Assembly (NCBI RefSeq): GCF_011603975.1 | Contig: NZ_JAANNB010000002.1 | Location: 1-56,817, forward strand | Direction of reading: 5' to 3' | From: Cellulomonas sp. IC4_254 | GTDB lineage: Bacteria; Actinomycetota; Actinomycetes; Actinomycetales; Cellulomonadaceae | DNA length: 56,817 nucleotides | Part shown: one piece after another, positions 2,375 through 29,671 of the stretch | Position numbering within the stretch: position 1 is the stretch's first letter | How the letters are laid out: each line of letters opens with the position of its first letter | Notes under the pieces: generated by a model | Told to the model about the DNA's origin: nothing | What the model saw: only the letters and a program-made list of their open reading frames with translations | Databases searched by the model: none | Translations under genes and position numbers: made by a program

Positions 2375-3509
<1,135 letters not shown>

Positions 3510-3546: not shown

Positions 3547-6399
3547 ATGCCTTCGCGCCTCCTCCTCGCTCTCGCGGTCGCCGCCGCGACCGCCGTCCCG
3601 GCGGGGCTCCCGCCGGCCGCGGCCGCCGCAGCACCCGCCCCGGCCACCGCGGTGGCCGCCGACCCGATCGGGGTGTCGGAGGAGTCGCTGCAGGCGACCC
3701 TCGGGACGCCCGGCGCCGAGCCCGACGCGGCGGAGCCCGCCGTCGGCACGACCGTGCAGGAGGCCACGCTCGTCGTGGCCCCGCAGGCCGACGCCGAGCC
3801 GGTCGCCCCGGACGCCGCGGCCCGCACGGCGCAGGGCGCCGAGCCCGACGCAGCCGAGCCCGACGCCGCCGAGCCCGACGCCGCCGACGCCGCGCCCGCC
3901 CCCGAGGACCTGCCCGCGGTCGACGCCGCGGACGAGCCGGTCGTCGCCGACCTGCTGGACGCCACCGAGCCGGAGCGGGTCGTGACCCCGCCGGTCGACA
4001 CCACCGGCGCCCAGACCGTGGGCGTGACCTGGCCGGCCGGCGCCGAGGCGGCCGACCTGGCGCCGCAGGCCCGCACGCTGTCGGACGGCACCTGGTCCGG
4101 CTGGACCGACCTGGAGGCCTCCGACCTCGCGGCGGACGCCGGCGGGGTCGACGCCGAGCACGAGCTGCGCGGCGGGACCGACGCCCTGTGGATCGGCGAG
4201 GCCGAGGCGGTGCAGCTGTCGTTCGCCGCCACCGCCGAGGGCGGCCCGCAGGACATGACCTTCGTGCAGGTGAGCTCGCCCGAGGAGGAGCCCGCCGTCG
4301 CGGGCGCCCAGGACGACGCCGCGGCGAGCGTCGAGGGTGCCGCGTCCACCGGCGACGCCGTGATCCGCACCGCTGCCGCTGTCGTGCCGGCCGCGGTGGA
4401 CGCGCCGCGGGTGTACTCCCGGGCCGAGTGGGGCGCCCGCGCCCCGTCGTGCACCCCGGACGTGGCGCGCACGCTGCTCGCGGCCGTCGTGCACCACACG
4501 GCCGGCAGCAACTCCTACACGTCGGTCGCCCAGGCGATGCAGCAGATCCGGAACGACCAGGCGTACCACATCACCGGTCGCGGCTGGTGCGACATCGGCT
4601 ACAACTTCCTCGTCGACAAGTGGGGCAACGTGTACGAGGGCCGGGCGAACTCCGGCACCCAGCCCGTGATCGGCGTGCACGCCGGCGGGTTCAACACCTC
4701 GACGGTCGGCATCTCGATGCTCGGCGACTACAGCTCGATCACGCCGTCCGCCGGCACGCAGGAGTCCGTGGCCCGGCTGATCGCCTGGCGGCTGTCGCAG
4801 TACCACCGCGACCCCACGAGCACCGTCGGCTACACCACCCTCGGCGGCGAGAACTCGCGGTACCCCGCGGGCACGTCGCTCGCGCTGCCGGTCGTCGTCG
4901 GCCACCGGGACACCGCGTACACCGCGTGCCCGGGCAACGCCGGCTACGCCGTGCTGGGCGCGATCAAGAACCGGGCCCGCGCGATCATCGGCGCCGGCTT
5001 CGTCAACCCGGCGGCGACCGCCTCGTCCATCGGCATCGGCGGGTCGGTCTCGGTCACCGGCGGCGTCATCACCGGCGCGAACTGGTCGCTGGCGGTCACC
5101 GACACCCGCACCGGCATCATCGTGCAGCGCGTGAACGGCAGCTCCGGCGCCTCCGGCGGCGGCGCGATCGCGACCTGGAACGGCACGTCCTCGGCGGGCA
5201 ACGCCGCGGGACCCGGCACCTACCGGCTGACCCTGACCGGCACGTACGGGGCGACGACGCTCGTGCCCTACACGGCGAACGTCACCGTCACCGGCAGCCA
5301 GAACCCGCCGACCGTGGCGCCGGTGGCGCTCACCGGGGACCTCGGGTTCGTCCCGATGACGCCGACCCGGGTGCTCGACACCCGTCCGTCCGCGGCCTCG
5401 CTCGGCGCGGCCTCCCGCGTGGACGTCAAGGTCGCGGGCGTGTCCGGCATCCCGGCGGATGCCAAGGCCGTCGCGCTGACCGTCACGGCGGTCAACTCCT
5501 CGACGATCACGCACATCCGGGCCTGGCCCGCCGGGCAGACCATGCCCAACGCCTCGGTGCTCAACACCGACCCCGGCCGCACCACGGCGGGCTCGCTCGT
5601 GGTCGGCGTCGGGGGCGAGGGCAAGGTCAGCCTGTGGAACAACCTCGGCAGCACCCACCTCCTGGTGGACGTGACGGGGTACTACACGAGCGCGTCCGGC
5701 ACCGGCTACGAGGCGCTCGGCAGCGCCACCCGCGTGCTCGACACCCGGCAGTCCGGCGGCGCCGTGCAGCCGCGCACCCGACGCACCGTGCAGGTGGCGG
5801 GCACCGGTGGCGTGCCGGCCGACGCGACGGCGGTGGCGGTGAACGTCGTGTCGGTGCGGCCGGGCGGCTACGGCTACGTCGCGGTGGTCCCGAGCGGGGC
5901 CGCCGTGGGCAGCACGTCCACGGTGAACAACCAGCCGGGCCGCGACGTGGCGAACCGCGCCGTGGTCACGCTGACCGGGGGCAAGCTGGACGTGTACGTC
6001 GACGGCGTCGCGCAGCAGGTCGTGGTCGACGTCGTCGGCTGGTACGGCTCGTCCGCGTCGGCCACCTTCACGCCCATCGCCCCGGTGCGGGCGTTCGACA
6101 CCCGCTCGGGTGCGCCGCTGGGCGCGGGGGAGACCCGCTCGCTCAACGTGGCGGGGCTGCCCGCGGGTGCCTCGTCGGTGGCGATGAACCTCACGTCGAC
6201 CAACGCCTCCGCGGCGGCCACGTACCTGACGGTCTGGGGCGCCGGCGCGCGGCCCGGGACGTCGGACCTGAACGCGGGCGCCGGGCGTGACCAGGCCAAC
6301 CAGGTGTACGTCGCCCCGAGCGCCGGGCGGGTCAACGTGTACAACAACCTGGGCACGAGCCACGTGGTCGCGGACGTGTTCGGGTACTTCGCCGACTGA
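3547..6399 (+). CDS. Secreted PGRP-type N-acetylmuramoyl-L-alanine amidase with three C-terminal repeats
   Basis: Predicted to cut the amide bond between muramic acid and the stem peptide. The 950-residue protein starts with a signal peptide (about residues 1-33), then an Ala/Glu/Asp/Pro-rich stretch with repeated AEPDAA units. The PGRP/Amidase_2 domain spans about 286-480. It carries the zinc-ligand set His316/His317 (VVHHTAG), His453 (GHRD) and Cys461 (TACPG). An FlgD-like Ig domain (about 488-590) follows. Three repeats of about 115 residues (596-950) each run from a TRVLDTR-type motif to a VDVxGYY-type motif. The same Ig-plus-three-repeats tail occurs on the SpoIID protein at 15440. The ATG at 3547 is chosen because the signal peptide begins there; an in-frame TTG at 3481 would add 22 unlikely residues. 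Wall binding by the repeats is inferred. Confidence 0.9.
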   Translation: MPSRLLLALAVAAATAVPAGLPPAAAAAAPAPATAVAADPIGVSEESLQATLGTPGAEPDAAEPAVGTTVQEATLVVAPQADAEPVAPDAAARTAQGAEPDAAEPDAAEPDAADAAPAPEDLPAVDAADEPVVADLLDATEPERVVTPPVDTTGAQTVGVTWPAGAEAADLAPQARTLSDGTWSGWTDLEASDLAADAGGVDAEHELRGGTDALWIGEAEAVQLSFAATAEGGPQDMTFVQVSSPEEEPAVAGAQDDAAASVEGAASTGDAVIRTAAAVVPAAVDAPRVYSRAEWGARAPSCTPDVARTLLAAVVHHTAGSNSYTSVAQAMQQIRNDQAYHITGRGWCDIGYNFLVDKWGNVYEGRANSGTQPVIGVHAGGFNTSTVGISMLGDYSSITPSAGTQESVARLIAWRLSQYHRDPTSTVGYTTLGGENSRYPAGTSLALPVVVGHRDTAYTACPGNAGYAVLGAIKNRARAIIGAGFVNPAATASSIGIGGSVSVTGGVITGANWSLAVTDTRTGIIVQRVNGSSGASGGGAIATWNGTSSAGNAAGPGTYRLTLTGTYGATTLVPYTANVTVTGSQNPPTVAPVALTGDLGFVPMTPTRVLDTRPSAASLGAASRVDVKVAGVSGIPADAKAVALTVTAVNSSTITHIRAWPAGQTMPNASVLNTDPGRTTAGSLVVGVGGEGKVSLWNNLGSTHLLVDVTGYYTSASGTGYEALGSATRVLDTRQSGGAVQPRTRRTVQVAGTGGVPADATAVAVNVVSVRPGGYGYVAVVPSGAAVGSTSTVNNQPGRDVANRAVVTLTGGKLDVYVDGVAQQVVVDVVGWYGSSASATFTPIAPVRAFDTRSGAPLGAGETRSLNVAGLPAGASSVAMNLTSTNASAAATYLTVWGAGARPGTSDLNAGAGRDQANQVYVAPSAGRVNVYNNLGTSHVVADVFGYFAD
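5335..6396 (+). repeat. Three tandem ~115-codon repeats in the amidase
   Basis: The units begin near TRVLDTRPS, TRVLDTRQS and VRAFDTRSG. They end near LLVDVTGYY, VVVDVVGWY and VVADVFGYF. They are diverged at the DNA level and conserved in protein pattern, including NASVLN/STVNN/TSDLN in the middle of each unit. Confidence 0.8.
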
Positions 6400-6431
6400 G
6401 CCGGTCCGACGGGGGCGCGGGCGACCGCGGG

Positions 6432-6437
6432 TATGCT
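6432..6437 (+). promoter_or_regulatory. -10 box of the methyltransferase-wzm-wzt-GT4 operon
   Basis: TATGCT about 40 nt before the ATG at 6478, with GGAAG as a possible ribosome site 7 nt before the start. The box sits in the loop of an imperfect inverted repeat (arms near 6404-6419 and 6449-6461). That repeat could terminate the amidase transcript or act as an operator. Confidence 0.45.
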
Positions 6438-6477
6438 GACGCGGCGCTCGCGCCCCCGGACGATCGGAAGTCTTCCC

Positions 6478-7353
6478 ATGTCGCAGTACGACACGACGCT
6501 CGACCTGTCGGTGTCGAACACCAGCCACGCGCAGGTGCTCAGCCTGGTCCCGGCGGGCAGCGACGTGCTCGACGTCGGGTGCGCCACCGGCTACCTCGCC
6601 GAGGCGCTGACCGCGCGCGGCTGCACCGTCAGCGGCGTCGAGTACGACCCCGAGGCCGCCGAGAAGGCGCGCCCGCACCTGCAGCACCTCGTCGTCGGCG
6701 ACCTCAGCACGATGGACGTCGCGGCGGAGTTCGGGGACCGGACGTACGACGTCCTCGTGTTCGCCGACGTCCTGGAGCACGTCGCCGACCCCGCCGACGT
6801 GCTGCGCCGCCTGCTGACGCTGCTGCGCCCGGGCGGCTCGGTCGTCATGTCCATCCCGAACGTCGCGCACGGCTCGCTGCGCCTGGCGCTGCTGCAGGGC
6901 CGCTGGCAGTACACCGAGGTCGGCCTGCTGGACCGGACGCACATCCGGTTCTTCACGCGGCGCTCGGTGCTCGAGCTGCTGGCCGAGACCGGCCTGGCGG
7001 CCGCGGACCTGCGCACCACGTTCCGCGACCCGCTCGACGCGGACGTGGAGATCGACGCGGCCGCGCTGCCACCCGGGGTCGTGGACTGGGTCCGCGCCCA
7101 GGAGGACGCCACCACGTTCCAGTTCGTGCTGCGCGCGGTCCGGGACGACGCCGACGCCGCCCTCAGCCGCGCGGTGGCCGAGCGCGAGTCGCTGCGGTCG
7201 CAGGTCGCGACGCTGCGGGACACCGCGGAGCGCGCCCGCGCCGAGCGCGACGCCGCCGTGGCCTCGCTGCGCGAGGTGCAGGGCACGCTGGGCTGGCGGC
7301 TGCTGCGCGTGCCCCGGTCCCTGTACGGCAAGGTCCGCGGGGGCGCCCGGTGA
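6478..7353 (+). CDS. Class I SAM-dependent methyltransferase with C-terminal coiled coil
   Basis: Predicted sugar or glycan methyltransferase. The 291-residue protein has the SAM-binding glycine motif VLDVGCATGYLAEAL (about residues 23-37), an acidic residue in GVEYD, and the DVLEHVADP motif of the UbiE/Coq3-like class. From about residue 222 a heptad-rich helical segment (many Glu/Arg/Ala) leads to a basic tail ending LYGKVRGGAR. The stop overlaps the wzm start by 4 nt, so the two are probably translationally coupled. Because it is coupled to Wzm/Wzt, a role in capping the glycan chain, as in E. coli O8/O9a, is an attractive inference. Modification of another acceptor remains possible. Confidence 0.85.
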   Translation: MSQYDTTLDLSVSNTSHAQVLSLVPAGSDVLDVGCATGYLAEALTARGCTVSGVEYDPEAAEKARPHLQHLVVGDLSTMDVAAEFGDRTYDVLVFADVLEHVADPADVLRRLLTLLRPGGSVVMSIPNVAHGSLRLALLQGRWQYTEVGLLDRTHIRFFTRRSVLELLAETGLAAADLRTTFRDPLDADVEIDAAALPPGVVDWVRAQEDATTFQFVLRAVRDDADAALSRAVAERESLRSQVATLRDTAERARAERDAAVASLREVQGTLGWRLLRVPRSLYGKVRGGAR

Positions 7354-8186
7354 TCACCATGGTGCGCGAGCTCCGGCAGGCGCCGGAGCTCCTGGCGAAC
7401 CTGACCCGCCGCGAGGTCAAGGGCAAGTACAAGCGGACCGTCCTGGGTCAGCTCTGGTCGCTGGTGAACCCGCTGGCGCAGATGCTCATCTTCACGGCGG
7501 TGTTCTCGTTCGTGCTGCGGGTGCCGATCCCGACGGGCGACCCGTCCGGGCTGCACAACTTCGCCGTCTACCTGCTGTGCGGCCTGCTGCCGTGGGGCTT
7601 CTTCGTCAACGTGCTGAACGGCGGCATGGGCTCGCTGGTCGGCAACGAGAACCTCATCAAGAAGGTCGCGTTCCCGCGGGCGGCGCTGCCGCTGTCCAAC
7701 GCGCTGTCGCTGGTGTTCTCGTGGTCCATCGAGATGGTGGTGCTGCTGATCGCCCTGACGCTGCTCGGTGCCGCGTCGCTGCTGTGGACCCCGGCGGTCG
7801 TCGTCGTGATGGCCCTGCTGTTCCTGTTCGCGTTCGGGGTCTCGCTGATGCTCTCCGTCGCGAACGTGTACTTCCGCGACACCCAGCACTTCGTCGGGAT
7901 CCTGACGCAGGCGTGGTTCTACGCGACGCCGATCGTGTACCCGACGTCGCTGGTGCTGGAGCAGTCCGAGAAGCTCGGCCCGCTGCTGGGCTCGGTGACC
8001 CTGTACGACGTGTACCGGCTGAACCCGATGGAGCGGTTCGTGGAGCTGTTCCGCGCGCCGCTGTACGACAACACCTGGCCGCCGCTCGACTCGACGCTGT
8101 ACTGCGTCGCGTGGGCCGTGGGGTCGGTGCTGCTCGGCGTGTGGGTGTTCAGCCGGCACGAGAAGAAGCTGGCGGAGGCGCTGTGA
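7350..8186 (+). CDS. wzm: ABC-2 type polysaccharide exporter permease (Wzm-like)
   Basis: Membrane half of an ABC exporter that moves a lipid-linked polysaccharide across the membrane. The 278-residue protein opens with the cytoplasmic amphipathic motif LTRREVKGKYKRTVLGQLW typical of Wzm/TagG permeases. About six hydrophobic segments follow, and the YATPIVYP motif is near the C-terminus. The GTG at 7350 overlaps the previous stop (GTGA); an in-frame ATG lies three codons on at 7359. Its end overlaps wzt by 4 nt. Teichoic-acid-type TagG and O-antigen Wzm are the same family, so the exact substrate is not known. Confidence 0.92.
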   Translation: MITMVRELRQAPELLANLTRREVKGKYKRTVLGQLWSLVNPLAQMLIFTAVFSFVLRVPIPTGDPSGLHNFAVYLLCGLLPWGFFVNVLNGGMGSLVGNENLIKKVAFPRAALPLSNALSLVFSWSIEMVVLLIALTLLGAASLLWTPAVVVVMALLFLFAFGVSLMLSVANVYFRDTQHFVGILTQAWFYATPIVYPTSLVLEQSEKLGPLLGSVTLYDVYRLNPMERFVELFRAPLYDNTWPPLDSTLYCVAWAVGSVLLGVWVFSRHEKKLAEAL

Positions 8187-9364
8187 GCGAGGCAGCCGTC
8201 ACGGTGGACTCCGTGACGAAGAAGTTCCGGGTGTACCACGAGCGGAACCAGACGCTGAAGGCCGCGGTCATGCGGCGCCGGCGGTCGGTCTACGAGGACT
8301 TCCTGGCCCTGGACGACGTGGGCTTCGAGATCCCGCAGGGCAGCACGTTCGGCCTGGTGGGGGACAACGGCTCCGGCAAGTCGACCCTGCTCAAGTGCCT
8401 GGCGCGGATCCTGTACCCGGACTCCGGCGACGTGGTCACCCGCGGGCGGGTCGCCGCGCTGCTCGAGGTCGGCTCCGGGTTCCACCCCGAGCTTTCCGGC
8501 CGGGACAACGTCTACCTGAACGGCTCGATCCTCGGGATGAGCCGCGAGGAGATCGACCGCAAGTTCGACGCGATCGTCGACTTCTCCGGCGTCGAGCAGT
8601 TCATCGACCAGCCGGTGAAGAACTACTCCTCCGGCATGTACGTGCGGCTCGGGTTCTCGGTCGCGATCCACGTCGACCCCGAGATCCTGCTGGTCGACGA
8701 GGTGCTCGCCGTGGGCGACGCCGCGTTCCAGGAGAAGTGCACCGAGAAGTTCGTCGAGTTCCGCCGGGACGGCCGCACGGTCGTCGTGGTCAGCCACTCG
8801 ATGCCGTCGCTGCGCAACATGTGCGACAACGTCGCGTGGCTGTCGCACGGCAAGCTGGTCGAGACGGGCGAGGCGAAGCCGATCCTCGAGCGCTACCTCG
8901 ACTCCACCCGCACGGACCAGCGGACCGGCCGGGACGGCGAGGTCCGCTGGGGCTCCGGCGAGGCGCAGATCGACGCCGTCGAGCTGGTCGGCCCGTCCGG
9001 CCCCGCCGCCTCGTTCCGCACCGGTGACGAGGTGACCATCCGGCTCCGGTACACCGCGCGGGAGCGCATCGAGAACCCCGTGTTCGGCCTGGCGCTGGAG
9101 TCGCACGACGGCGTCTACCTGTGGGCGAACAACACCCGGGACCTCGGCCACCGCATCGACGCCATCGAGGGCTCCGGCGTCGTCGAGTGCACCATCCCGC
9201 GGCTCGCGCTGCAGCCGGGCACCTTCCAGGTGATGGCGTCGGTGGTCGACCAGTCCACGACGCACGTCTACGACTACGTGCGCGAGGGCGCGCGGCTGGT
9301 GGTGGACTTCGGCACGCCGGTGGAGTCCGGCGGCTACCTGGCGCTCGACGGGCGCTGGTCGTGA
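8183..9364 (+). CDS. wzt: Polysaccharide ABC transporter ATPase with carbohydrate-binding C-terminal domain (Wzt-like)
   Basis: ATPase partner of the Wzm-like permease. The 393-residue protein has Walker A GDNGSGKST (about residue 60), the ABC signature region YSSGM (about 148) and Walker B EILLVDEVLAVGD (about 170-182). The C-terminal domain of about 140 residues (from roughly 255) is a beta-rich segment like Wzt-C. In E. coli O8/O9a, Wzt-C recognises the modified non-reducing end of the polymer. Plain TagH-type ATPases of about 250 residues would lack or differ in this part. The start GTG overlaps the wzm stop and the stop overlaps the next GTG, giving a tight operon. Recognition of a methylated cap is an inference from the neighbouring methyltransferase. 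Confidence 0.92.
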   Translation: MSEAAVTVDSVTKKFRVYHERNQTLKAAVMRRRRSVYEDFLALDDVGFEIPQGSTFGLVGDNGSGKSTLLKCLARILYPDSGDVVTRGRVAALLEVGSGFHPELSGRDNVYLNGSILGMSREEIDRKFDAIVDFSGVEQFIDQPVKNYSSGMYVRLGFSVAIHVDPEILLVDEVLAVGDAAFQEKCTEKFVEFRRDGRTVVVVSHSMPSLRNMCDNVAWLSHGKLVETGEAKPILERYLDSTRTDQRTGRDGEVRWGSGEAQIDAVELVGPSGPAASFRTGDEVTIRLRYTARERIENPVFGLALESHDGVYLWANNTRDLGHRIDAIEGSGVVECTIPRLALQPGTFQVMASVVDQSTTHVYDYVREGARLVVDFGTPVESGGYLALDGRWS

Positions 9365-10758
9365 CCGCGCCGGCGCCGGCGGGCACCCGGCAGCGGGTCC
9401 TCGTCGTCACGCTGGACACGATCGCCGACCGGATGGCCGGCCCCGCGATCCGCGCCTGGGAGATCTCCCGGGCGCTGAGCGAGGAGCACGACGTCCGGCT
9501 CGTCACCTTCGGCCGGTGCAGCCGCGACGGCGTCGGCTTCCGGGCCGAGCACACGACCGTCGAGGCGTTCCGCGCGGACGTCGACGCCGCGGACGTGGTG
9601 GTCGTCCAGGGCTTCGTGTTCAACGCGTTCGCGTGGCTGCAGGACTGCCCGCAGGTGATCGTGGTCGACCTGTACGACCCGTTCCAGATCGAGACGCTCG
9701 AGGTCGACCGGTACAAGCCCGCCGCCGAGCGCGAGCGGGCCCTGGCGTTCGCGCTGGGCGAGCTCCGCGACCAGCTGCGCCGCGGCGACCTGTTCCTGTG
9801 CGCGTCCCGCCGGCAGCGCGACCTGTGGTTCGGGCACCTCTCGGCCGCCGGCCGGATCAACCCGGACACCTACGACGCCGACCCGAGCCTCGCGTCGCTG
9901 CTCACGATCGTCCCGTTCGGCACCGCGCCCGAGGCGCCCGTGCAGGCGCGGCACGCCATCAAGGGCGCCACGCCCGGGATCGGCCCGGACGACAAGGTCG
10001 TGCTGTGGGGCGGCGGCGTCTACAACTGGTTCGACCCGCTGACGCTGATCCGCGCGGTCGACCGGGTGCGCGCCCGGGTGCCGGAGGTGCGGCTGTACTT
10101 CCTCGGCATGAAGCACCCCAACCCCGACGTGCCGGAGATGGCCGTGGCCACCCGCACCCGGGACCTCGCCGACGAGCTCGGCCTGACCGGCTCGCACGTG
10201 TTCTTCAACGACGACTGGGTGCCGTACGAGACCCGCGCGGACTACCTGGTGGACGCGGACGTGGGCGTCAGCTGCCACTTCCCGCACGTGGAGACCGAGT
10301 TCTCGTTCCGGACGCGCATCCTGGACTACCTGTGGGCCGGGCTGCCGATCGTGTCGACCGAGGGCGACGGGTTCGCCGACCTCGTGCGCGAGCGGGGCCT
10401 GGGCCGCGCGGTGCCGCCGGAGGACGTGGACGCGCTGGCGGACGCGCTCGCCGAGCTGCTGACCGACGCGGACGCCGCGGCGGCCGCGCGCGCCGCCGTC
10501 GCGGAGACGGCCCGCGAGTTCACCTGGCCCGTGGTGCTGGCGCCGCTGGTCGAGTTCTGCCGCGCGCCGCGCCGGGCGGCCGACGCGCACCGGCTCGCCA
10601 CGTCCGACCCGGCCGCGCCGGTGCCGGTCGCGGTGCCGCGGGTCGGCCGGCTGCGCGCGCTGCGCACCGACGCGGGCGCCGTCTGGCGGCACCTGCGGGC
10701 CGGCGGCGTGCGCCAGGTGGTCGCGAAGGTGCGCTGGCGGCTCGCCCGCCGCCGCTGA
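9361..10758 (+). CDS. GT4-like (GT-B) glycosyltransferase
   Basis: Predicted cytoplasmic glycosyltransferase of 465 residues, last gene of the methyltransferase-wzm-wzt operon. Its GTG overlaps the wzt stop by 4 nt. The N-terminal half includes ADRMAGPAIRAWEISRAL, a motif often seen in GT4 enzymes of surface-polysaccharide clusters. The C-terminal nucleotide-sugar domain has VLWGGGVYNW, the FNDDWVPYETRADYL region and YLWAGLPIVSTEGDG. The last 35 residues form a basic amphipathic tail (LRAGG...KVRW) similar to the tail of the tandem transferase ending at 15311, which may help membrane contact. Donor and acceptor cannot be read from sequence. Confidence 0.85.
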   Translation: MTAPAPAGTRQRVLVVTLDTIADRMAGPAIRAWEISRALSEEHDVRLVTFGRCSRDGVGFRAEHTTVEAFRADVDAADVVVVQGFVFNAFAWLQDCPQVIVVDLYDPFQIETLEVDRYKPAAERERALAFALGELRDQLRRGDLFLCASRRQRDLWFGHLSAAGRINPDTYDADPSLASLLTIVPFGTAPEAPVQARHAIKGATPGIGPDDKVVLWGGGVYNWFDPLTLIRAVDRVRARVPEVRLYFLGMKHPNPDVPEMAVATRTRDLADELGLTGSHVFFNDDWVPYETRADYLVDADVGVSCHFPHVETEFSFRTRILDYLWAGLPIVSTEGDGFADLVRERGLGRAVPPEDVDALADALAELLTDADAAAAARAAVAETAREFTWPVVLAPLVEFCRAPRRAADAHRLATSDPAAPVPVAVPRVGRLRALRTDAGAVWRHLRAGGVRQVVAKVRWRLARRR

Positions 10759-10780
10759 CCGCGTCGGCGCCCAACGGACC

Positions 10781-10798
10781 GGTGCCCCCGCGGGCACC
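10781..10798. terminator. Hairpin between convergent glycosyltransferase genes
   Basis: A perfect 7-bp stem, GGTGCCC with GGGCACC and loop CCGC, is followed by a second GC palindrome, in the 63-bp gap between converging genes. No T-tract. Confidence 0.5.
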
Positions 10799-10821
10799 GC
10801 TGCCCGCGCGGGCGCCGCGCG

Positions 10822-12324
10822 TCAGCGCACCGAGCGGTGGTTCACGTGCGGGTCGTGCTTCGCGAGCTCGACCGTCTTCTCCACCAGGTACTGCCGCTCG
10901 AACGGCCGCACGTCGGCCACCCGGCTGGAGCTCTCGTAGTGGAACAGCGTCGCGAACGGCGTGCACACCACCGACCGCCCGGCGGCCACCACCTTGTGGC
11001 AGAAGTCGACGTCGTTGAACGCCATCGGCAGCTCCTCGCTGAAGCCGCCGAGCTCGAGGTAGAGGTCGCGGGGGACCAGCACGCACGCGGCGGTCACGGC
11101 GAGGTAGTCGACGTCGACGATCTTCGCGCCGAAGTGGCTCGCGTCGTCGGCGCCCACCCGGTGCGCGTGCACGGGCAGCCACGCGTCGTCGTGCACGATC
11201 CCGACGTGCTGGATGGTGCCGTCCTCGAACAGCAGCTTGGCGCCCACGGCCCCGACGCCCGGGTCCTGCGCGACGGCGACCATGCGGTCGAGCCAGCGCG
11301 GCTCCACCACCTCGGTGTCGTCGTTCAGCAGCACCACCAGGTCGCCGCGCGCGACCCGCACGCCCTCGTTGACCGAGTGCGAGAACGAGAACTCGCCGGT
11401 CACGGGGGCGACCGTCAGCCGGTCGCCGGCCAGGTCGCGGACCACGTCCACGACCCCCTCCGGGGTGTTCTCGCTCGCGACGAGCACGATCTCCCACCGC
11501 GGGTAGGTGGTCCGCTCGACCAGGGAGCGCACGGCGGTCTCGACGACGAGCGTCGACTCGCCGCGGACGTCGCGCCGGCCGCCGCCGGTCGGGATCACGA
11601 CCGAGACCAGGGGCGGCGGCTCCGGCAGCGTCCGCCAGACCCGCAGGTAGCCCGCCGGGTCCGCGACCTCGACCGTCGCGGGGACGCCGAGCCGCTCGTA
11701 CCGGGCGGCGACGGCGCGCCGGCCGGCCTCGACGTCTGCGGGGTCCGTGGACGGCGGGCGCAGCCGGGTCACGCCGATGACCGGCAGGTGCTCGACGCGG
11801 TCGGTGGCCTCGGTGACCCGCAGGTGCAGGTCCCACTCGGCGGCGCGCTCGTCGTCGGCGACGCCGCCGACCCGCTCGGCCAGCGTGCGGCGGACCAGGC
11901 AGAGCCGGCCGAGGTAGTCCCAGCCCTCGAGGTAGTGCGGCGCCCAGCCGGGCTTGGTGTGGATGCCCTCGATCCCGGGGGCGTCCCACTGCTCGTCGAC
12001 GTACAGCACGTCGGCCTCGGGCCGGGCCGCCAGGTACTCCGCGGCGGCGGACAGCACGCCCGGCTCCAGCTCGTCGCCGGGCGCGAGCAGGCCGAGGTAG
12101 TCGCCGCCGGCGCCGGCCGCGCGGGCGCCGAGCGGGCCGCCGACCCACTCGACCCGGCGGGGCAGCGCGGCGTCGACGGCCTCGCGGCCCTGCGGGGAGA
12201 CGCTGCCCGGGTCGGCGACCAGCCGGGCCGGCGCGCCGGGGTCGAGGGCCAGGCTCCGGGCGGTGCGGAGCACGGTGGCGTCGTCGCCGCCCCCGAGCAG
12301 GACGACGGACAGGACGGGGCTCAT
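10822..12324 (-). CDS. GT2 family glycosyltransferase with N-terminal accessory domain
   Basis: Predicted surface-polysaccharide glycosyltransferase of 500 residues. About residues 1-200 form a degenerate GT2-like module (LYVDEQWD matches the usual acidic motif position). From about 240 there is a full GT-A domain: VSVVIPTGGG, SHSVNEGVRVARGDLVVLLNDDTEV with the metal-binding Asp pair, and GTIQHVGIV. This two-module layout is common in O-antigen-type GT2 proteins. The ATG at 12324 overlaps the stop of the small coiled-coil gene upstream by 4 nt, so both share the leaderless promoter at 12679. The sugar specificity is unknown. Confidence 0.87.
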   Translation of the reverse strand: MSPVLSVVLLGGGDDATVLRTARSLALDPGAPARLVADPGSVSPQGREAVDAALPRRVEWVGGPLGARAAGAGGDYLGLLAPGDELEPGVLSAAAEYLAARPEADVLYVDEQWDAPGIEGIHTKPGWAPHYLEGWDYLGRLCLVRRTLAERVGGVADDERAAEWDLHLRVTEATDRVEHLPVIGVTRLRPPSTDPADVEAGRRAVAARYERLGVPATVEVADPAGYLRVWRTLPEPPPLVSVVIPTGGGRRDVRGESTLVVETAVRSLVERTTYPRWEIVLVASENTPEGVVDVVRDLAGDRLTVAPVTGEFSFSHSVNEGVRVARGDLVVLLNDDTEVVEPRWLDRMVAVAQDPGVGAVGAKLLFEDGTIQHVGIVHDDAWLPVHAHRVGADDASHFGAKIVDVDYLAVTAACVLVPRDLYLELGGFSEELPMAFNDVDFCHKVVAAGRSVVCTPFATLFHYESSSRVADVRPFERQYLVEKTVELAKHDPHVNHRSVR

Positions 12325-12671
12325 CGCTGGGACAGCCCCGCGCGCACGTAGCGGCCGGCGACCGACCGGGCGCGCCGGACCGCCTTCCGGAGCAGGCCGG
12401 CCGCGGAGGCCGGGCGCTGCTGGACCTGCGCCTCGAGCTCGCGGACGTACGCCTCGCGCTCGCGCAGGGCGTGGGTCTGCTCGCGGAGCAGCGCGTCGCG
12501 GCGCGCGACGGCCGCGCGGAGCACGTGCAGCTCCGCGGTCACGGCGTCGAAGCGCTGCTGGAGGAGGGGCTCGGCCGTCGCGGCGGCGCGCTCGGCCATC
12601 CGCTCGTGGGCCGCCCGGTCGCGTCGCGCGAGGTCGGCGTGCCACGGCGCACGGGTCGGCGAATCGGACAT
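12321..12671 (-). CDS. Small coiled-coil protein of unknown function
   Basis: I do not recognise a named family. The 116-residue protein has no signal peptide or membrane segment. Residues about 18-85 are dominated by Ala, Arg, Glu, Gln and Leu in a heptad-like pattern (AVARRDALLREQTHAL, REREAYVRELEAQVQQ), predicting a coiled coil. It ends in a basic segment, LLRKAVRRARSVAGRYVRAG, resembling the C-terminal tails of the neighbouring methyltransferase and glycosyltransferases. It is translationally coupled to the GT2 (ATGA overlap). A scaffold or chain-length role for that enzyme is plausible but unproven. The ATG at 12671 has a TAGTGT box 7 nt upstream. Confidence 0.8.
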   Translation of the reverse strand: MSDSPTRAPWHADLARRDRAAHERMAERAAATAEPLLQQRFDAVTAELHVLRAAVARRDALLREQTHALREREAYVRELEAQVQQRPASAAGLLRKAVRRARSVAGRYVRAGLSQR

Positions 12672-12678
12672 GGCGGGA

Positions 12679-12684
12679 ACACTA
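12679..12684 (-). promoter_or_regulatory. Leaderless -10 box for the coiled-coil/GT2 operon
   Basis: TAGTGT on the minus strand, exactly 7 nt before the ATG at 12671. It faces away from the box at 12725-12730 in the same 66-bp gap. Confidence 0.55.
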
Positions 12685-12724
12685 GAGCATCCGGGGCCCG
12701 GGACGGCAGCGACGCCCCAGCGTC

Positions 12725-12730
12725 TAGACT
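12725..12730 (+). promoter_or_regulatory. Leaderless -10 box of the tandem glycosyltransferase
   Basis: TAGACT ends 7 nt before the GTG at 12738. No Shine-Dalgarno sequence is present. Confidence 0.55.
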
Positions 12731-12737
12731 CGGCCGG

Positions 12738-15311
12738 GTGCGTGTCGTCCAGGTGTCTGCCCACTTCCCGCCGAACCTGGTGAGCGGGGGCACGCTGGTC
12801 CCGCAGCGCATCGCCCGCGGCCTGGCCGACCGGGGGCACGACGTGCACGTGTACGCGGGGTACCTGGACGAGGACCGCGAACCGCTGAGCACCTGGACCG
12901 AGGACGACGGCCACGGGGTGTCGGTGCGCTGGGTCGTCACGACGCCGTGGACCGCCTGGTCCGACCCGCGCAACAGCCTGAACCCCGCCGTGACGGCGGA
13001 CTTCGAGCGCTGGCTCGCGGAGGTCCGGCCGGACGTGGTGCACCTGCACTCGCTGCAGACGCTCGGCGCGGGGCTGGTCGGGGCGGCCCACCGCTCCGGC
13101 GCCCGGGTCGTGGTGACCATGCACGACTTCTGGTGGTCGTGCGCGCGCCAGTTCCTGGTCGCGCCGGACATGCGGCCGTGCAGCCTGGTCGTCGACTGCG
13201 GCACCTGCCCGTGCGCGGTGTCGCACGACTGGCTGGAGCGCCGCAACGCGCGGCTGCACGCCGAGCTGGAGCACGCGGACGTCGTGCTCGCGCCCTCGAC
13301 GAGCGCCGCGCAGGTGCTCGCGGCCAACGGCGTGGACCCGGCCCGGCTGGTCGTGGACGAGAACGGGGTCCCGCAGGGCGACCGAGCGCCGCAGGCCGGG
13401 CCGCCCGCCGCGCGCGAGCCGGGCGGTCCGGTCCGGTTCATGTTCGCCGGCGGCGCCGACCCGATGAAGGGCCTGCCGGTCCTGCTGGAGTCGCTCGCGG
13501 CGCTGCCCGGCGACGGCTGGACCCTCGACCTGTACGGCGTGGACCCCGCGGCGGCGCGCGGCGCCGGGCCGCTGCCCGCCGCGGTGCGGTTCCCGCCGGC
13601 CTACGACCGGACGACCGTCGCCGACGTGATGGCCGCGCACGACGTGCTGGTGCTGCCGTCGGTCATGCGCGAGTCGCACTCGATCGTCACCCGGGAGGCG
13701 CTGGCCGCCGGCCTGGCCGTGGTCTGCACGGACACGCTCGGCCCGCAGGAGGTGGTCGAGGACGGCGTCAACGGGATGGTCGTCCCCGCCGCCGACCCCG
13801 AGGCGCTCGGCGCCGCCCTCGCGCGGCTCGCCGCCGACCCGGCGCTGGTCGCCCGGCTCCGCGAGGGGCACGACGACGTGGCGATCCGCGAGTTCACCGA
13901 CCAGCTCGACGGGCTGGAGGAGCTGTACGCCGGCCTGGTCGCGCCGTCGCACGAGGAGGAGGACCGCATGTCGGAGCAGGACGCGCTCGAGGCCGAGGAC
14001 GCGCTGCTGCAGCGGGTGCTGTTCGTGGTGGGCATCCGGGGGGCGGCCCTGCGCTACCGGGGGTTCCTGCCCGCGGAGGCGCTGCGGCTGCGCGGGGTGC
14101 ACGCGGACGTCCGGCACTACCGCGACCCCGAGGTGCCGGCGCTCGCGGCCCGCGCCGACGCGCTGGTGCTCTACCGGGTGCCGGCGACGCCGCAGATCAC
14201 CCAGGTGGTCGAGGACGTGCGCGCGCGGCCCCGGCCGGTGCCGGTGCTGTTCGACATCGACGACCTGATCTTCGACCCCGCGCTCGAGGGGCAGGTGCAC
14301 GGCCTCGACGTGCTGTCCCCGGAGGAGCACGCGCTGTGGTGGCGCGGCGTCGCGCGGTACCGCACCACGATGGAGCTCGCGGACGCCTACGTCGGCAGCA
14401 CCGAGCGGCTGTGCGAGCACGCCACCGCGACCACCGGGCTGCCGGCGTTCCGGTTCGCCAACGGCGTCGGCGTCGACCTCGCGAAGCAGAGCGACCGCGC
14501 CCGCGCCCGCGCGCGCACCCCGGGGCCCCTGCGGATCGGCTACTTCAGCGGCACGAACACGCACGACGCGGACTGGGCGGTCGTCGAGCCCGCGGTCGCG
14601 CGGGTGCTCGCGGCGCGTCCGGACGTCGAGCTGTGGCTAGGCGGGTTCCTCACCACCGGGCCCGCGCTGGAGCCGTTCGCGGACCGGGTGCGCCGGCTGC
14701 CGATGCTGCCCTGGTACGAGCTGCCGGGCCGGCTGCGCGACGTGGACGTCAACCTCGCGCCGCTCGTGCTCGAGAACACGTTCAACGAGGCCAAGTCCGC
14801 CATCAAGTGGCTCGAGGCGGCGCTGGTCGAGACCCCCACGGTCGCCTCGCCCACGCAGCCGTTCCGCGAGGCGGTCGACGACGGGCGCACCGGGTTCCTC
14901 GCGACGGACGAGGCCGGCTGGGAGCGCGCGGTCGGCGCGCTGCTGGACGACGCCCTGCTGCGCCGCCGGGTGGGCGCCGCCGCCCGCCGCGAGGCGCTGC
15001 TGCGCTGGGGCCCGCACGCGCAGGCCGGCGCCTACCTGGACGCCCTGCGCGGCGCGGCCGCCGTCCGGCGCGCCCACGGGCCGCGGCAGGCGACCGGCTG
15101 GGTGCCGGTGCAGGACGACGAGCCGTTCGACGTCGCCGAGGGCTGGATCGACGCGCACCCGGGGATCCCGGACGACCGCCGGGCCCAGCTGATCGCCCGG
15201 GCGGCGGGGCTGCCCGGCGGGCGGCAGGCCGTGGCGGCCGCGCGGGTGCTCCGCGCGGGCGGGCCGTCGGCGCTCGCGCGCAAGGTGGCGTCCCGGGTCC
15301 GCACCCGCTGA
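12738..15311 (+). CDS. Tandem two-domain GT4-type glycosyltransferase
   Basis: An 857-residue protein made of two complete GT-B modules. Module 1 (about 1-405) starts VVQVSAHFPPNLVSGG. It has the FMFAGGADPMKGLPVLLESL sugar-nucleotide region and ESHSIVTREALAAG with the donor-contacting Glu. Module 2 (about 420-800) has LFDIDDLIFDP, IGYFSGTNTHDADW and NEAKSAIKWLEAALVETP. The junction encodes an acidic linker. At 13968 the linker contains an in-frame ATG preceded 5-8 nt by GGAGGA, a good ribosome site, so module 2 (447 residues) could also be made alone. Two successive glycosyl transfers by one chain are likely. The C-terminal tail (LRAGG...ARKV) matches that of the GT4 at 9361. The GTG start fits the leaderless -10 box. 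Confidence 0.87.
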   Translation: MRVVQVSAHFPPNLVSGGTLVPQRIARGLADRGHDVHVYAGYLDEDREPLSTWTEDDGHGVSVRWVVTTPWTAWSDPRNSLNPAVTADFERWLAEVRPDVVHLHSLQTLGAGLVGAAHRSGARVVVTMHDFWWSCARQFLVAPDMRPCSLVVDCGTCPCAVSHDWLERRNARLHAELEHADVVLAPSTSAAQVLAANGVDPARLVVDENGVPQGDRAPQAGPPAAREPGGPVRFMFAGGADPMKGLPVLLESLAALPGDGWTLDLYGVDPAAARGAGPLPAAVRFPPAYDRTTVADVMAAHDVLVLPSVMRESHSIVTREALAAGLAVVCTDTLGPQEVVEDGVNGMVVPAADPEALGAALARLAADPALVARLREGHDDVAIREFTDQLDGLEELYAGLVAPSHEEEDRMSEQDALEAEDALLQRVLFVVGIRGAALRYRGFLPAEALRLRGVHADVRHYRDPEVPALAARADALVLYRVPATPQITQVVEDVRARPRPVPVLFDIDDLIFDPALEGQVHGLDVLSPEEHALWWRGVARYRTTMELADAYVGSTERLCEHATATTGLPAFRFANGVGVDLAKQSDRARARARTPGPLRIGYFSGTNTHDADWAVVEPAVARVLAARPDVELWLGGFLTTGPALEPFADRVRRLPMLPWYELPGRLRDVDVNLAPLVLENTFNEAKSAIKWLEAALVETPTVASPTQPFREAVDDGRTGFLATDEAGWERAVGALLDDALLRRRVGAAARREALLRWGPHAQAGAYLDALRGAAAVRRAHGPRQATGWVPVQDDEPFDVAEGWIDAHPGIPDDRRAQLIARAAGLPGGRQAVAAARVLRAGGPSALARKVASRVRTR

Positions 15312-15323
15312 CGGTCCCGGGCG

Positions 15324-15355
15324 GGGCGGATCGGACATTTCGGGGCGATCCGCCC
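15324..15355 (+). terminator. Hairpin after the tandem glycosyltransferase
   Basis: A perfect 10-bp stem (GGGCGGATCG, 15324-15333, with 15346-15355) and a 12-nt loop start 12 nt after the stop codon. No T-tract. Confidence 0.5.
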
Positions 15356-15395
15356 GGGGTTGGCGAGGGGCCCCCGGAACGGGACCCGGGGTCCC

Positions 15396-15401
15396 TATCC
15401 T
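15396..15401 (+). promoter_or_regulatory. -10 box of the SpoIID-type gene
   Basis: TATCCT about 38 nt before the GTG at 15440. CGAGGA 6 nt before the start may act as ribosome site. Confidence 0.45.
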
Positions 15402-15439
15402 GAGGCGGTCCCCACCGCCGCACCTCCCGAGGACCCGCC

Positions 15440-18103
15440 GTGACACTCCTGCGCCGCCTGACAGCCACGGTGGTCGCCGCCGTCCTCGCCGGGACGGGGC
15501 TGGTCGCGGTCGCGCCGGCGGCCTCGGCCGCGGAGGAGGTCTACCCCGCGCCGGCCTCCGGGTCGTGGACGGTCGACGGCCGCGCGTACGGGCACGGCCG
15601 CGGCCTCTCGCAGTGGGGCGCCCAGGGCGCGGCGCTGCAGGGCCGCACGGCGGCGGAGATCCTCGCCTTCTACTACCCGGGGACCTCGACGGGCTCGATC
15701 TCCGGGCAGTACGTCAAGACCACGCTCGCGGCGTACGCGCCGTCGAGCACGGTGACCATCTGGAGCCCGGAGAACCGGAACATCCGGATGGGGCCGCTCA
15801 ACGGCGAGCAGGTCCTGTCGCCGGGCCGCTGGACGATCACCGTCTCCGGCCAGACGGTCACCGCGGTGAAGCGGACCATGGTGAACGGCCCGGTCGTCGA
15901 CACCCGGCAGTACACCGGCGTCCTGCGGCTGGAGTCGCAGAACGAGTACGGCATGGTCATCGCGAAGAACCAGACTGACACCACCGGCCGGTGGTACCGG
16001 GGCGACCTGCGGATCGAGCCGACCTCGGGCGTCGCGTTCAACGTGACCAACAGCCTCCCGATGGAGGACTACCTGCGCAGCGTGGTGCCGCGCGAGTCCC
16101 CGGCCTCGTGGCAGGCCGCGGCGCTCCAGGCCCAGGCCGTGGCCGCGCGCTCGTACGCGTGGTGGAAGGTCACCAACGGCCAGACCCTGTGCGACACCAC
16201 CACCTGCCAGGTCTACTACGGGCGCGGCGACGCGAACGCGGCCGGCTCGCTCACCACTTCCTACGAGGACAGCCGCACCGACGCCGCGATCGCCGCGACC
16301 GGCGGGCAGATCCGGCTGTGGAACGGCGCCGTCGCGTTCACCGAGTTCTCCTCGTCCAACGGCGGCTGGACCGCCGCGGGCTCCGTCCCGTACCAGGTGG
16401 CGAAGGCCGACCCCTGGACCGGCACCGCGCCCGGCGACACGGTCACCTCGTGGACCGCCGAGCTCACGGTGGCGCGCGTGGCGCAGTCCTGCCCGTCCGG
16501 CGGGACGCTGCGGAACCTGGTCGTGACGGGCCGCACCGGCAACGGGCCGCTCGGCGGCCGCATCTCCCAGGTCCGGCTCGAGTGCTCGACGGGCAACGCC
16601 ACCGTCAACAGCCCGGCGTTCGGCCTGCGCTCCAGCTGGTGGAAGCCGCGGGCGACCACCCCGGTGCTCGGCTCGGTCGCGGTGTCGGCCACCACGATCG
16701 ACCACGGCGGCCAGATGAGCATCGGCGTGACGCCGAACCTCGCGATGACCTGGGCGCTCACGGTCGTGGACCGCAGCACCAACCGCCAGGTGATCCGCAC
16801 GACCGGCAGCGCCCAGGCCGGGGTCCGGTTCAACGCGACCTGGTTCGGCACCTACGACGGCCGCACCGCCGCCGACCCGGTGTACGTCGGGCCGGGCAGC
16901 TACGCCCTGACGCTCGTCGGCACCGACGCCTCGGGGCGGACCTCGAACACGGTGTCCACCACGGTCACCGTCCGGCAGCCCGCGGACGCGGCCGCACCGC
17001 CGGCCGTCGCCCTGGTCGGGAACGGCGGGTACGTCCCGCTCACCCCCACCCGGCTGGTCGACACCCGCACGACGTTCCAGGCCCTCGGGTCCGGCAGCCG
17101 CGCCGAGGTGCCGGTCCTGGGCCGCGGCGGCGTGCCCGCGTCCGGCGTCACCGCCGTCGTGCTCAACGTGACGGCCGTGGGGACGAGCGTCGCGGGCCAC
17201 CTGCGGGTCTGGCCCGCGGGCGCCGCGATGCCCAACGCCTCGGTGCTGAACACCGCCCCCGGGCGCACCCAGGCCAGCCAGGTGACGGTCGGCGTGGGCG
17301 GCAACGGCTCCGTGAGCGTCTACAACGCCATCGGCACCACGCACTACCTGGTCGACGTGCTCGGCTACTACACCACCGACACCGCCGCGTCCGCCCGGTA
17401 CACCGCGATCGACCCGGTCCGGGCGATGGACTCCCGCTCGGGCGCCTCCGTGGCCCCGGGGACCACCCGCACCGTCGACGTCGCGGCGGCCCTCGGCGTC
17501 CCCGCCTCCTCGCTCAGCGCGGTCACCGTGAACGTCACCACCACGCGCGCCACCGGCAACGGCTACGTGGTCGCCTACGGCTCCGGCGCCCTGCCCTCGT
17601 CGTCGACGGTGAACCTCGTGGCCGGCGCGGACATCGCGAACCGCGCGGTCGTCCCGGTGGTCGGCGGCAAGATCACGGTCGCGGCGGCCGGCTCGTACAG
17701 CCACGTGCTGGTCGACGTCGTCGGCTGGTACGGCGTCCGCGGCGCGGCGACCGGCGCGCTGTTCACCCCGGTCCAGCCCTCCCGGGTCCTGGACACCCGC
17801 TCCGGCGCGCCGGTCGGGCCCGCGGGGCAGGTGCAGGCCACCGTCACCGGCGGCGCGGTCCCGGCGGACGCCACCGCCGTGGTCGGCACGGTCACGGCCG
17901 TGAACCACACCGCCCCGTGGACGCACCTGCGGGTGTGGCCGGCCGGGCGGCCGCTCACCGGCACCTCGGACCTCAACGCGACGCGCGGGTTCACCCAGGC
18001 GAACGCGGTCGTCGTCCGAGTGGGCGACGGGGGAGCGGTCCGGCTCTACAACGACCAGGGCAGCACGCACGTCGTGCTGGACGTGGCGGGGTACTTCCGC
18101 TGA
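15440..18103 (+). CDS. Secreted SpoIID/LytB-domain protein with three C-terminal repeats
   Basis: SpoIID proteins are lytic transglycosylases acting on peptidoglycan, best known from sporulation. This 887-residue protein has a signal peptide ending near ASA30. The SpoIID signature GHGRGLSQWGA follows, then LPMEDYLRSVVPRESP with the conserved Glu (Glu219) and AQAVAARSYAWW. An FlgD-like Ig domain (about 410-515) comes next, and three repeats of about 115 residues (525-887) with TRLVDTR and VDVLGYY-type motifs. The tail order is the same as in the amidase at 3547. Nothing else here suggests sporulation, so a vegetative wall role is inferred; many denuded-glycan-specific family members lack a stem-peptide partner. 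The GTG start places the signal peptide at residue 1. Confidence 0.88.
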   Translation: MTLLRRLTATVVAAVLAGTGLVAVAPAASAAEEVYPAPASGSWTVDGRAYGHGRGLSQWGAQGAALQGRTAAEILAFYYPGTSTGSISGQYVKTTLAAYAPSSTVTIWSPENRNIRMGPLNGEQVLSPGRWTITVSGQTVTAVKRTMVNGPVVDTRQYTGVLRLESQNEYGMVIAKNQTDTTGRWYRGDLRIEPTSGVAFNVTNSLPMEDYLRSVVPRESPASWQAAALQAQAVAARSYAWWKVTNGQTLCDTTTCQVYYGRGDANAAGSLTTSYEDSRTDAAIAATGGQIRLWNGAVAFTEFSSSNGGWTAAGSVPYQVAKADPWTGTAPGDTVTSWTAELTVARVAQSCPSGGTLRNLVVTGRTGNGPLGGRISQVRLECSTGNATVNSPAFGLRSSWWKPRATTPVLGSVAVSATTIDHGGQMSIGVTPNLAMTWALTVVDRSTNRQVIRTTGSAQAGVRFNATWFGTYDGRTAADPVYVGPGSYALTLVGTDASGRTSNTVSTTVTVRQPADAAAPPAVALVGNGGYVPLTPTRLVDTRTTFQALGSGSRAEVPVLGRGGVPASGVTAVVLNVTAVGTSVAGHLRVWPAGAAMPNASVLNTAPGRTQASQVTVGVGGNGSVSVYNAIGTTHYLVDVLGYYTTDTAASARYTAIDPVRAMDSRSGASVAPGTTRTVDVAAALGVPASSLSAVTVNVTTTRATGNGYVVAYGSGALPSSSTVNLVAGADIANRAVVPVVGGKITVAAAGSYSHVLVDVVGWYGVRGAATGALFTPVQPSRVLDTRSGAPVGPAGQVQATVTGGAVPADATAVVGTVTAVNHTAPWTHLRVWPAGRPLTGTSDLNATRGFTQANAVVVRVGDGGAVRLYNDQGSTHVVLDVAGYFR
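17011..18100 (+). repeat. Three tandem ~115-codon repeats in the SpoIID-type protein
   Basis: The units begin near YVPLTPTRLVDTR, IDPVRAMDSRSG and VQPSRVLDTRSG and end near VDVLGYY, VDVVGWY and LDVAGYF. They follow the same pattern as the amidase repeats. The stretch coding PNASVLNT plus DPGR/APGR is nearly identical between the first units of both proteins. Confidence 0.8.
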
Positions 18104-24432: not shown

Positions 24433-25278
24433 GTGCGCTGGTTGGTCACGGGAGCCCGGGGGATGCTGGGCCAGGACCTGGTCGCGCGGGTGCGCGAGGA
24501 CGGTCACGAGGTCGTCGCGCTGGACCGCGCGGAGCTCGACATCACGGACGGGGCCGCGGTGCTCGACGCCGTCGCCGGGTTCGACGTGGTGGCGAACTGC
24601 GCCGCGTGGACCGCGGTGGACGACGCCGAGACCCGCGAGGCCGACGCCTTCACGGTGAACGCCGTGGGCCCGCAGTCGCTGGCGCGCGCCGCGGCGCGGC
24701 ACGGCGCCCGGCTGGTGCAGGTCTCGACGGACTACGTGTTCGACGGGCACGCCACCGAGCCGTACGCGGAGGACGGGTTCGCCGCGCCCCGGTCGGCCTA
24801 CGGCCGCACCAAGCTCGCGGGGGAGTGGGCCGTCCGCGCCGCGGGCGCCGACCACCTGATCCTGCGGACCGCGTGGCTCTACGGGGCCCACGGCTCGTGC
24901 TTCCCGAAGACCATCGCGCGCGTCGCGGCGGAGAAGGGCGGCCTGGACGTGGTGGACGACCAGGTCGGGCAGCCCACCTGGACCGTGGACGTGGCGGACC
25001 TCGCGGTCCGCCTGCTCGACGCGGGCGCCCCGGCGGGCACCTACCACGCGACGTCCTCGGGCCGGACCTCCTGGTTCGGCTTCGCGCGGGCCACCGTGGC
25101 CGCCGCGGGCCTGGACCCCGAGATCGTGCGGCCCACCACGAGCGAGGGTTACGTGCGCCCGGCGCCGCGCCCGTCGTTCTCCGTGCTCGGCCACGACGCG
25201 CTGCGCGCCGCGGGCGTCGAGCCGATCGGCGACTGGCAGGAGCGGTGGGCCACCGCCGCCAAGGAGGTGCTCGCCTGA
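24433..25278 (+). CDS. rmlD: dTDP-4-dehydrorhamnose reductase
   Basis: Last step of dTDP-L-rhamnose synthesis. The 281-residue SDR has VTGARGMLGQDL for NAD(P)H binding and CAAWTAVDDAE. STDYVFDGH and the catalytic Tyr-Lys pair in YGRTKLAGE follow, then the RmlD-specific RTAWLYG and DQVGQPTWT. It starts with GTG (residues MRWLVTG) and its stop shares an A with the ATG of pseI (TGATG), so rhamnose and pseudaminic acid genes are co-transcribed here. Confidence 0.94.
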   Translation: MRWLVTGARGMLGQDLVARVREDGHEVVALDRAELDITDGAAVLDAVAGFDVVANCAAWTAVDDAETREADAFTVNAVGPQSLARAAARHGARLVQVSTDYVFDGHATEPYAEDGFAAPRSAYGRTKLAGEWAVRAAGADHLILRTAWLYGAHGSCFPKTIARVAAEKGGLDVVDDQVGQPTWTVDVADLAVRLLDAGAPAGTYHATSSGRTSWFGFARATVAAAGLDPEIVRPTTSEGYVRPAPRPSFSVLGHDALRAAGVEPIGDWQERWATAAKEVLA

Positions 25279-26333: not shown

Positions 26334-26340
26334 CCTGCCG

Positions 26341-26368
26341 CCGCGGCGCCCTGCGCGGGGCGCCGCGG
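26341..26368. terminator. Bidirectional hairpin between pseI and pseG-pseH
   Basis: A perfect 11-bp G+C stem (26341-26351 with 26358-26368) with a 6-nt loop sits between two convergent genes. Confidence 0.6.
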
Positions 26369-26375
26369 CGCGCGG

Positions 26376-28588: not shown

Positions 28589-28677
28589 CGTGCCATGATG
28601 CTCTATCGGGAGCCACGCCCCGTGCGGCGGGGACGGCACCCCGCGTCCACCGACCCGACCGTCTGGAGTTCCACGGC

Positions 28678-29661: not shown

Positions 29662-29671
29662 GGCGGCCGGC

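Follow-up and report, generated by a model that had tools for sequence, protein, structure and literature searches.

We analysed a 56,817-nucleotide stretch of Cellulomonas sp. IC4_254 (contig NZ_JAANNB010000002.1, positions 1 to 56,817; hereafter the window) in which a PGRP-like amidase and a SpoIID-type protein end in the same tail of three related repeats. We propose, with a probability of about 0.55, that these repeats form a pseudo-trimeric module that docks secreted enzymes on a glycan of the cell envelope, the polymer of the surrounding locus being the candidate ligand in Cellulomonas. The computed evidence comprises the repeats and their homology, the rigidity of the predicted unit, a fold match to a fibre tip, a rule of one or three copies, an association of single copies with stalks, and a linkage to a wzm exporter gene at the level of the genus.

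A shared tail on two unrelated wall enzymes

The original prediction, made from the letters of the window, had described two genes with distinct catalytic domains, each followed by an FlgD-like immunoglobulin (Ig) domain and three repeats that resemble no wall-binding module with a name. Positions and catalytic domains were given correctly, and the two proteins are laid out as follows:

3547..6399, forward strand: PGRP-like amidase with a C-terminal three-lobe module (P0001, 950 residues; Amidase_2 and PGRP structure matches)
4480..4938, forward strand: Amidase_2 catalytic domain (Pfam, residues 312-464 of P0001)
5002..5340, forward strand: Ig-like spacer of the amidase (FlgD_ig-like, below cut-off; approximate bounds)
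5347..5685, forward strand: amidase module lobe 1 (P0001 residues 601-713; modelled alone)
5707..6045, forward strand: amidase module lobe 2 (P0001 residues 721-833)
6067..6390, forward strand: amidase module lobe 3 (P0001 residues 841-948)
15440..18103, forward strand: SpoIID-type protein with a C-terminal three-lobe module (P0002, 887 residues; SpoIID, TIGR02669)
16037..16486, forward strand: SpoIID/LytB catalytic domain (best model stretches; approximate)
16664..17023, forward strand: Ig-like spacer of the SpoIID protein (related to the amidase spacer; approximate bounds)
17030..17371, forward strand: SpoIID module lobe 1 (P0002 residues 531-644)
17399..17731, forward strand: SpoIID module lobe 2 (P0002 residues 654-764)
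17762..18097, forward strand: SpoIID module lobe 3 (P0002 residues 775-886; in the three-lobe model, the lobe that fits the Bd2133 tip best)

In Pfam, P0001 matches Amidase_2 (PF01510) at 64.2 bits against a cut-off of 26, and PGRP structures are found among its matches. P0002 matches SpoIID (PF08486) at 79.9 bits (cut-off 23, Pfam) and SpoIID_LytB (TIGR02669) at 149.2 bits (cut-off 83.3, NCBIfam). The six repeats measure 108-114 residues, and all 15 pairs among them are related, with z-scores of 10.9 to 50.2 (100 shuffles per pair), which confirms three related repeats per enzyme. For the Ig domain the outcome was mixed: the two spacers are indeed related to each other (z 11.4), but FlgD_ig (PF13860) scores 16.5 bits against a cut-off of 27 in the amidase, and Pfam lists no such match for the SpoIID protein.

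Repeats 1 and 2 each find their best partner in the same-numbered repeat of the other enzyme, and amidase repeat 3 pairs best with SpoIID repeat 3; the raw score of SpoIID repeat 3 is higher with amidase repeat 1 (255) than with amidase repeat 3 (234). Because same-numbered repeats mostly pair best and the spacers are related, the sequences suggest that the tail was copied as a block. As predicted, the repeats belong to no named module: they are covered by no Pfam, NCBIfam or PHROGs model in either enzyme, no PDB chain gives a confident sequence match to them, and literature searches of open PMC papers, aimed at the repeat, its motif or its hosts, listed no description of the repeat. No fibre or beta-helix model matches the window proteins, whose layout is that of catalytic domain, spacer and module.

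The SpoIID tail of three lobes (357 residues) is well predicted; its model is a rigid unit with a predicted template modelling (TM) score, pTM, of 0.93. In a structure comparison the predicted lobe models share the domain fold of the C-terminal tip of Bd2133, a beta-sandwich of a Bdellovibrio fibre (PDB 8OK3, 8OND; PMC10769870). The Bd2133 tip has one lobe per chain, is homotrimeric and sits on a fibre, whereas here three lobes follow each other in one chain whose host is an enzyme. The strand involved in the Bd2133 trimer (G989-W999) falls near a conserved SxLN stretch by linear interpolation, not by alignment. When the whole tail was compared to the PDB with Foldseek, no full-length relative was found (TM at most 0.26 among the 50 matches listed), and the viral structure library gave partial, low-TM matches only. 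SLH and CWB2 structures are absent from the matches listed by VIA, which is no evidence that the folds differ. Carbohydrate-binding modules occur among the lower structural matches of the lobe, and BclA structures among the weaker Foldseek matches (TM about 0.4 to 0.5). In the C-terminal domain of BclA and in other collagen-capping trimers, a beta-sandwich adjoins a collagen-like stalk, as in many of the single-lobe proteins described below; we know of no three-in-one form of such trimers. The MAT fibre protein has a stalk and a variable tip, from which the window proteins differ in being enzymes with spacer and module.

One lobe or three

A scan of named genomes gave 320 confirmed stretches, the best 80 loci of which were used in the locus analyses. 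In the first set of open reading frames (ORFs), exactly three repeats were found in 106 of 115. Among the nine others, those of L058, L079 and L116 stand at the end of a contig or locus, L126 contributes two overlapping frames with the look of a single split gene, those of L101 and L109 are weak or short, and those of L067 and L112 have two lobes. A second set, from 40 fetched regions, held three repeats in 26 of 31 ORFs and one in the other five. The third set consisted of 77 single-lobe proteins and one three-lobe protein, with none of two lobes; these singles were picked for short open frames from a partial list within one family, and ratios of one to three are not frequencies. A further set from that family, f34 (n = 48), has 27 one-lobe and 20 three-lobe proteins, from loci that are short, can cut triples to singles or doubles, and partly overlap the second set. 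In Cellulomonas genomes with at least three matches, the match count is a multiple of three in 16 of 20 (16 of 26 carriers overall).

Many of the single lobes stand beside trimer-forming sequence. At least seven Gly-X-Y triplets occur in 21 of the 77 single-lobe proteins, and such a run begins at most 20 residues after the lobe in 20 of the 77, versus none of 137 ORFs with two or more lobes. Pfam finds Collagen in 15 of the 77 and BclA_C in two; one further single-lobe protein has BclA_C above the cut-off. We also applied a wider set of markers, namely at least four Gly-X-Y triplets, the DDRY/YTK stalk motif and the GVxG fibre motif, the latter two of which we take to be signs of trimers. With these, 49 of the 77 singles were positive versus 0 of 130 triples, and none of the 20 triples of the same family (p = 6e-8, Fisher test, kinship ignored); in the family set, 11 of 27 singles were positive. 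The simplest reading is that three lobes are needed, supplied either by three chains of one or by one chain of three. Since enzymes not known as trimers retain all three lobes, the three-fold surface itself may well have a job.

One genome (G129, family f34; loci L197-L208, also L146 and L164) holds at least 22 single-lobe proteins within the stretches fetched, ten of them with at least seven Gly-X-Y triplets, a large and uncharacterised fibre repertoire.

The polysaccharide locus in Cellulomonas and hosts elsewhere

Three neighbouring genes mark the locus:

2375..3370, reverse strand: rmlB, dTDP-glucose 4,6-dehydratase, adjoining the amidase gene (TIGR01181, 459 bits, cut-off 365)
7350..8186, forward strand: permease of an ATP-binding cassette (ABC) exporter, Wzm type, which marks the coupled locus (NF050109 matches best in NCBIfam, with 82.1 bits against a cut-off of 380)
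8183..9364, forward strand: ATPase of the ABC exporter, Wzt/TagH type (in NCBIfam, teichoic acid and galactan exporter ATPases match best, none reaching its cut-off)

The original prediction suggested that the repeats may bind the polymer made by this locus and direct the hydrolases to it. Locus coupling is partly supported, the support coming from Cellulomonas. The module was found in 26 of 60 Cellulomonas genomes, a set whose genus label derives from contig coordinates, those of G380 and G386 agreeing with the loci named C. iranensis and C. triticagri. The closest wzm class (at least 55% identity to that of the window) occurs in 13 of the 60, and 12 of these carry the module (Fisher test, p = 6.6e-5, kinship ignored); the exception is a genome of 61% completeness. 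The distance between wzm and a module gene is 88 to 6584 bases in each of the 12. A wzm gene of 46-51% identity is present in six genomes, each with at least one module match, and the matches listed, which come from four of the six, are separated from wzm by about 1.4 Mb or by being on a different contig. In the remaining Cellulomonas genomes the module is found in 8 of 41. Within the stretch fetched for each named Cellulomonas locus, the tailed amidase gene, the SpoIID gene or both are syntenic with rmlB, wzm-wzt or glycosyltransferase genes, and this synteny recurs around the amidase in G003, G006 and G008.

The link is weak beyond the Cellulomonas group. Within the fetched flanks, 18 of the 80 named loci have a Wzm or Rml marker, some loci ending early at contig ends, and 12 of these 18 belong to Cellulomonas, Actinotalea or metagenome-assembled genomes of Micrococcales. 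The clustering that had been expected for the whole family thus fails, the repeats lying mostly outside surface-polysaccharide loci. Even within IC4_254 the tail is not tied to the window locus, since a second contig (C392, 14.6 kb) encodes two S8 subtilases with three repeats each (Pfam, 142 and 167 bits) and shows no tblastn relative of any window gene except the repeat; the neighbours there match a pyridine nucleotide-disulphide oxidoreductase, a methyltransferase and a CobW-like protein.

Across the phylum, the repeat is present in 19 of 296 genomes, in a survey that scored at most 15 candidates per genome, a number reached by 10 of the 18 other positive genomes. Named carriers include Cellulomonas, Streptomyces, Kitasatospora, Micromonospora and Arthrobacter. 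The 112 host parts fall into 41 sequence clusters. The prediction had associated the tail with wall-cutting enzymes; among the 80 host parts scanned against Pfam, Amidase_2 (8) and SpoIID (2) do recur as fusion partners, but so do RCC1 propellers (8), beta-helices (6), subtilases (5) and others, these counts being taken from the 25 families listed out of 66. Scanning 20 host parts in detail added CAP, C39-like peptidase, DUF1501 and PD40, among others, and four of the 20 matched no family. The sets used comprised 96 of the 106 tails from loci with the two window tails (A3), 80 of the 112 host parts (A4), and 97 of the 306 single repeats from loci with the six window repeats (A7). A phage origin was rejected: viral contigs gave 42 pattern matches, none of which was confirmed, and 50,697 phage records contain no module match. 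Plasmid records with matches number 12 of 72,556, ten of them from Streptomyces.

In single cases outside the Cellulomonas group, proteins that consist of little more than the module were observed inside an rml cluster (G101) and about 1.5 kb from wzm (G204). In addition, a 455-residue protein encoded between rml genes (L167:9483-10847) has its three lobes at residues 64-451. In the window itself, positions 25278-30802 encode PseI, PseB and PseC of the pseudaminic acid pathway above NCBIfam cut-offs, here in an actinobacterium; they share the locus with rmlA, rmlB and rmlD (above cut-off), with rmlC at 149.4 bits, just under its cut-off of 155.75, and with the Wzm/Wzt-type exporter.

Possible role of the module

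A number of results weigh against a docking module built on three lobes or against its link to the locus. Regarding copy number, the L067 and L112 proteins carry two lobes, those of L112 being identical at 104 of 116 positions, and one two-lobe protein occurs in family set f34. For 255 of 318 lobes, the closest counterpart in another protein has the same index, the best match lies within the same protein for 77 of 318 lobes, and the mean score between third lobes (163.7) is below that between lobes 1 and 3 (188.4). Because of these mean scores and within-protein matches, an old triplication kept in order appears to hold for nearer relatives only. Regarding the stalks, no marker was found in 28 of the 77 singles (12 of these are C-terminal tips) or in 16 of the 27 singles of the family set, and in 49 of 77 the lobe occupies the first third of the frame, a position that would suit a structural cap as well as a binding tip. 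No chain of Bd2133 came up in profile searches of the PDB (E up to 10). Contigs labelled Proteobacteria, Chloroflexi and Acidobacteria carry the module too; beyond Cellulomonas and its kin, hosts are diverse and mostly outside polysaccharide loci; and two of the four carriers in IC4_254 are the subtilases, outside any such locus. The other named loci show a marker in 6 of 67 versus 0 of 20 control windows (p = 0.33), two of which (L141, L146) themselves hold module genes.

An alternative is a structural or export cap that binds no glycan, serving fibres as a foldon-like trimer seed and monomeric enzymes as a protease-resistant end. Many singles are found close to the N-terminus and directly ahead of a collagen-like stalk, where a trimer seed is expected, and the hosts are functionally mixed; yet such a seed would be of no evident use to a monomeric enzyme, on which three lobes are nevertheless kept in the first and second ORF sets, and with the wzm linkage in Cellulomonas also speaking against it we consider a cap unlikely. 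The module could also be an adhesion domain for foreign or environmental surfaces, such as plant polysaccharide or other cells, with the Cellulomonas locus as one site of its recruitment: the hosts include many propellers, beta-helices and fibres, the lower structural matches contain carbohydrate-binding modules, and PMC10769870 places Bd2133 among the fibres that Bdellovibrio uses on prey. Amidase_2 and SpoIID domains, however, act on peptidoglycan, presumably the cell's own, and the module lies beside wzm in 12 of 12 genomes, which makes adhesion quite unlikely in our view. Tandem repeats with short linkers could finally be three wall-binding beads that act independently, their number serving affinity alone, as in LysM tails. 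We set such beads on a string aside as highly improbable on account of the fixed number of one or three, the multiples of three in Cellulomonas genomes and the rigidity of the modelled triple.

We therefore favour the docking module, in which three beta-sandwich copies, homotrimeric elsewhere, would be fused head to tail into a single-chain pseudo-trimer resembling a trimeric fibre tip. Its geometry would be close to three-fold, and the three-fold face or the grooves between lobes may bind a surface glycan, so anchoring secreted enzymes to the envelope. In Cellulomonas only, the best candidate ligand is the polymer that the adjacent Wzm/Wzt system exports, and the amidase and the SpoIID protein might act at the sites of its attachment.

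By analogy, the module would work like the SLH and CWB2 anchors, with three non-identical repeats as one surface unit on mixed hosts. For CWB2 (PF04122) of Clostridioides difficile, polymer binding and the need for all three repeats are reported in PMC4973711; the same source describes repeats of about 100 residues that come as three in tandem, differ from each other and stand N- or C-terminally on wall enzymes and proteases, with a polymer locus close by. Three tandem motifs are likewise present in both window proteins and in 106 of the 115 named ORFs. Binding to wall polymer is shown for CWB2, whereas for the present module we infer it. In SLH, three motifs fold into one pseudo-trimer that binds secondary wall polymer, and the motif is about 55 residues long (PMC4973711); the window repeats measure 108-114. 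The window proteins match neither the CWB2 nor the SLH model of Pfam at E up to 1. To our knowledge, single SLH motifs do not occur on collagen stalks. We tentatively extend the docking module to a broader view, in which an unnamed domain might exist in two states, as homotrimeric tip or base on collagen-like and other fibres and as covalent three-in-one anchor on enzymes; it could then be a further independent solution beside SLH and CWB2, coupling in Cellulomonas an amidase and a SpoIID protein to a glycopolymer of the same locus.

In our judgement, it is poorly mapped how secreted actinobacterial proteins are anchored in walls coated with lineage-specific polymers. The present family has a near-strict copy rule, a relative by fold whose structure is solved, and no model in Pfam or NCBIfam; describing it would put a name on many proteins now called hypothetical. 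The natural pair of single-lobe homotrimer and three-lobe chain is suited to asking why three-fold surfaces are kept, and locus-coupled targeting of wall hydrolases is directly testable in Cellulomonas.

Some carriers deserve separate mention. Three loci (L065, L104, L098) are on contigs that are recorded as Planococcus sp. APC 4015 and Stenotrophomonas maltophilia P13, and share neighbouring gene matches with Microbacterium saccharophilum (L108), possibly through contamination. Groups of three to five closely spaced module genes occur in L115, L121, L096 and L106 (Micromonospora, Asanoa, Kitasatospora and Streptomyces), with host parts from the cluster that contains beta-helices. In another Cellulomonas genome (L013:1180-3342) and in another family of the order (L012:1276-3471), SpoIID homologues end in DUF4214 and FG-GAP, both above the Pfam cut-off, in place of the module, a possible exchange of C-terminal modules.
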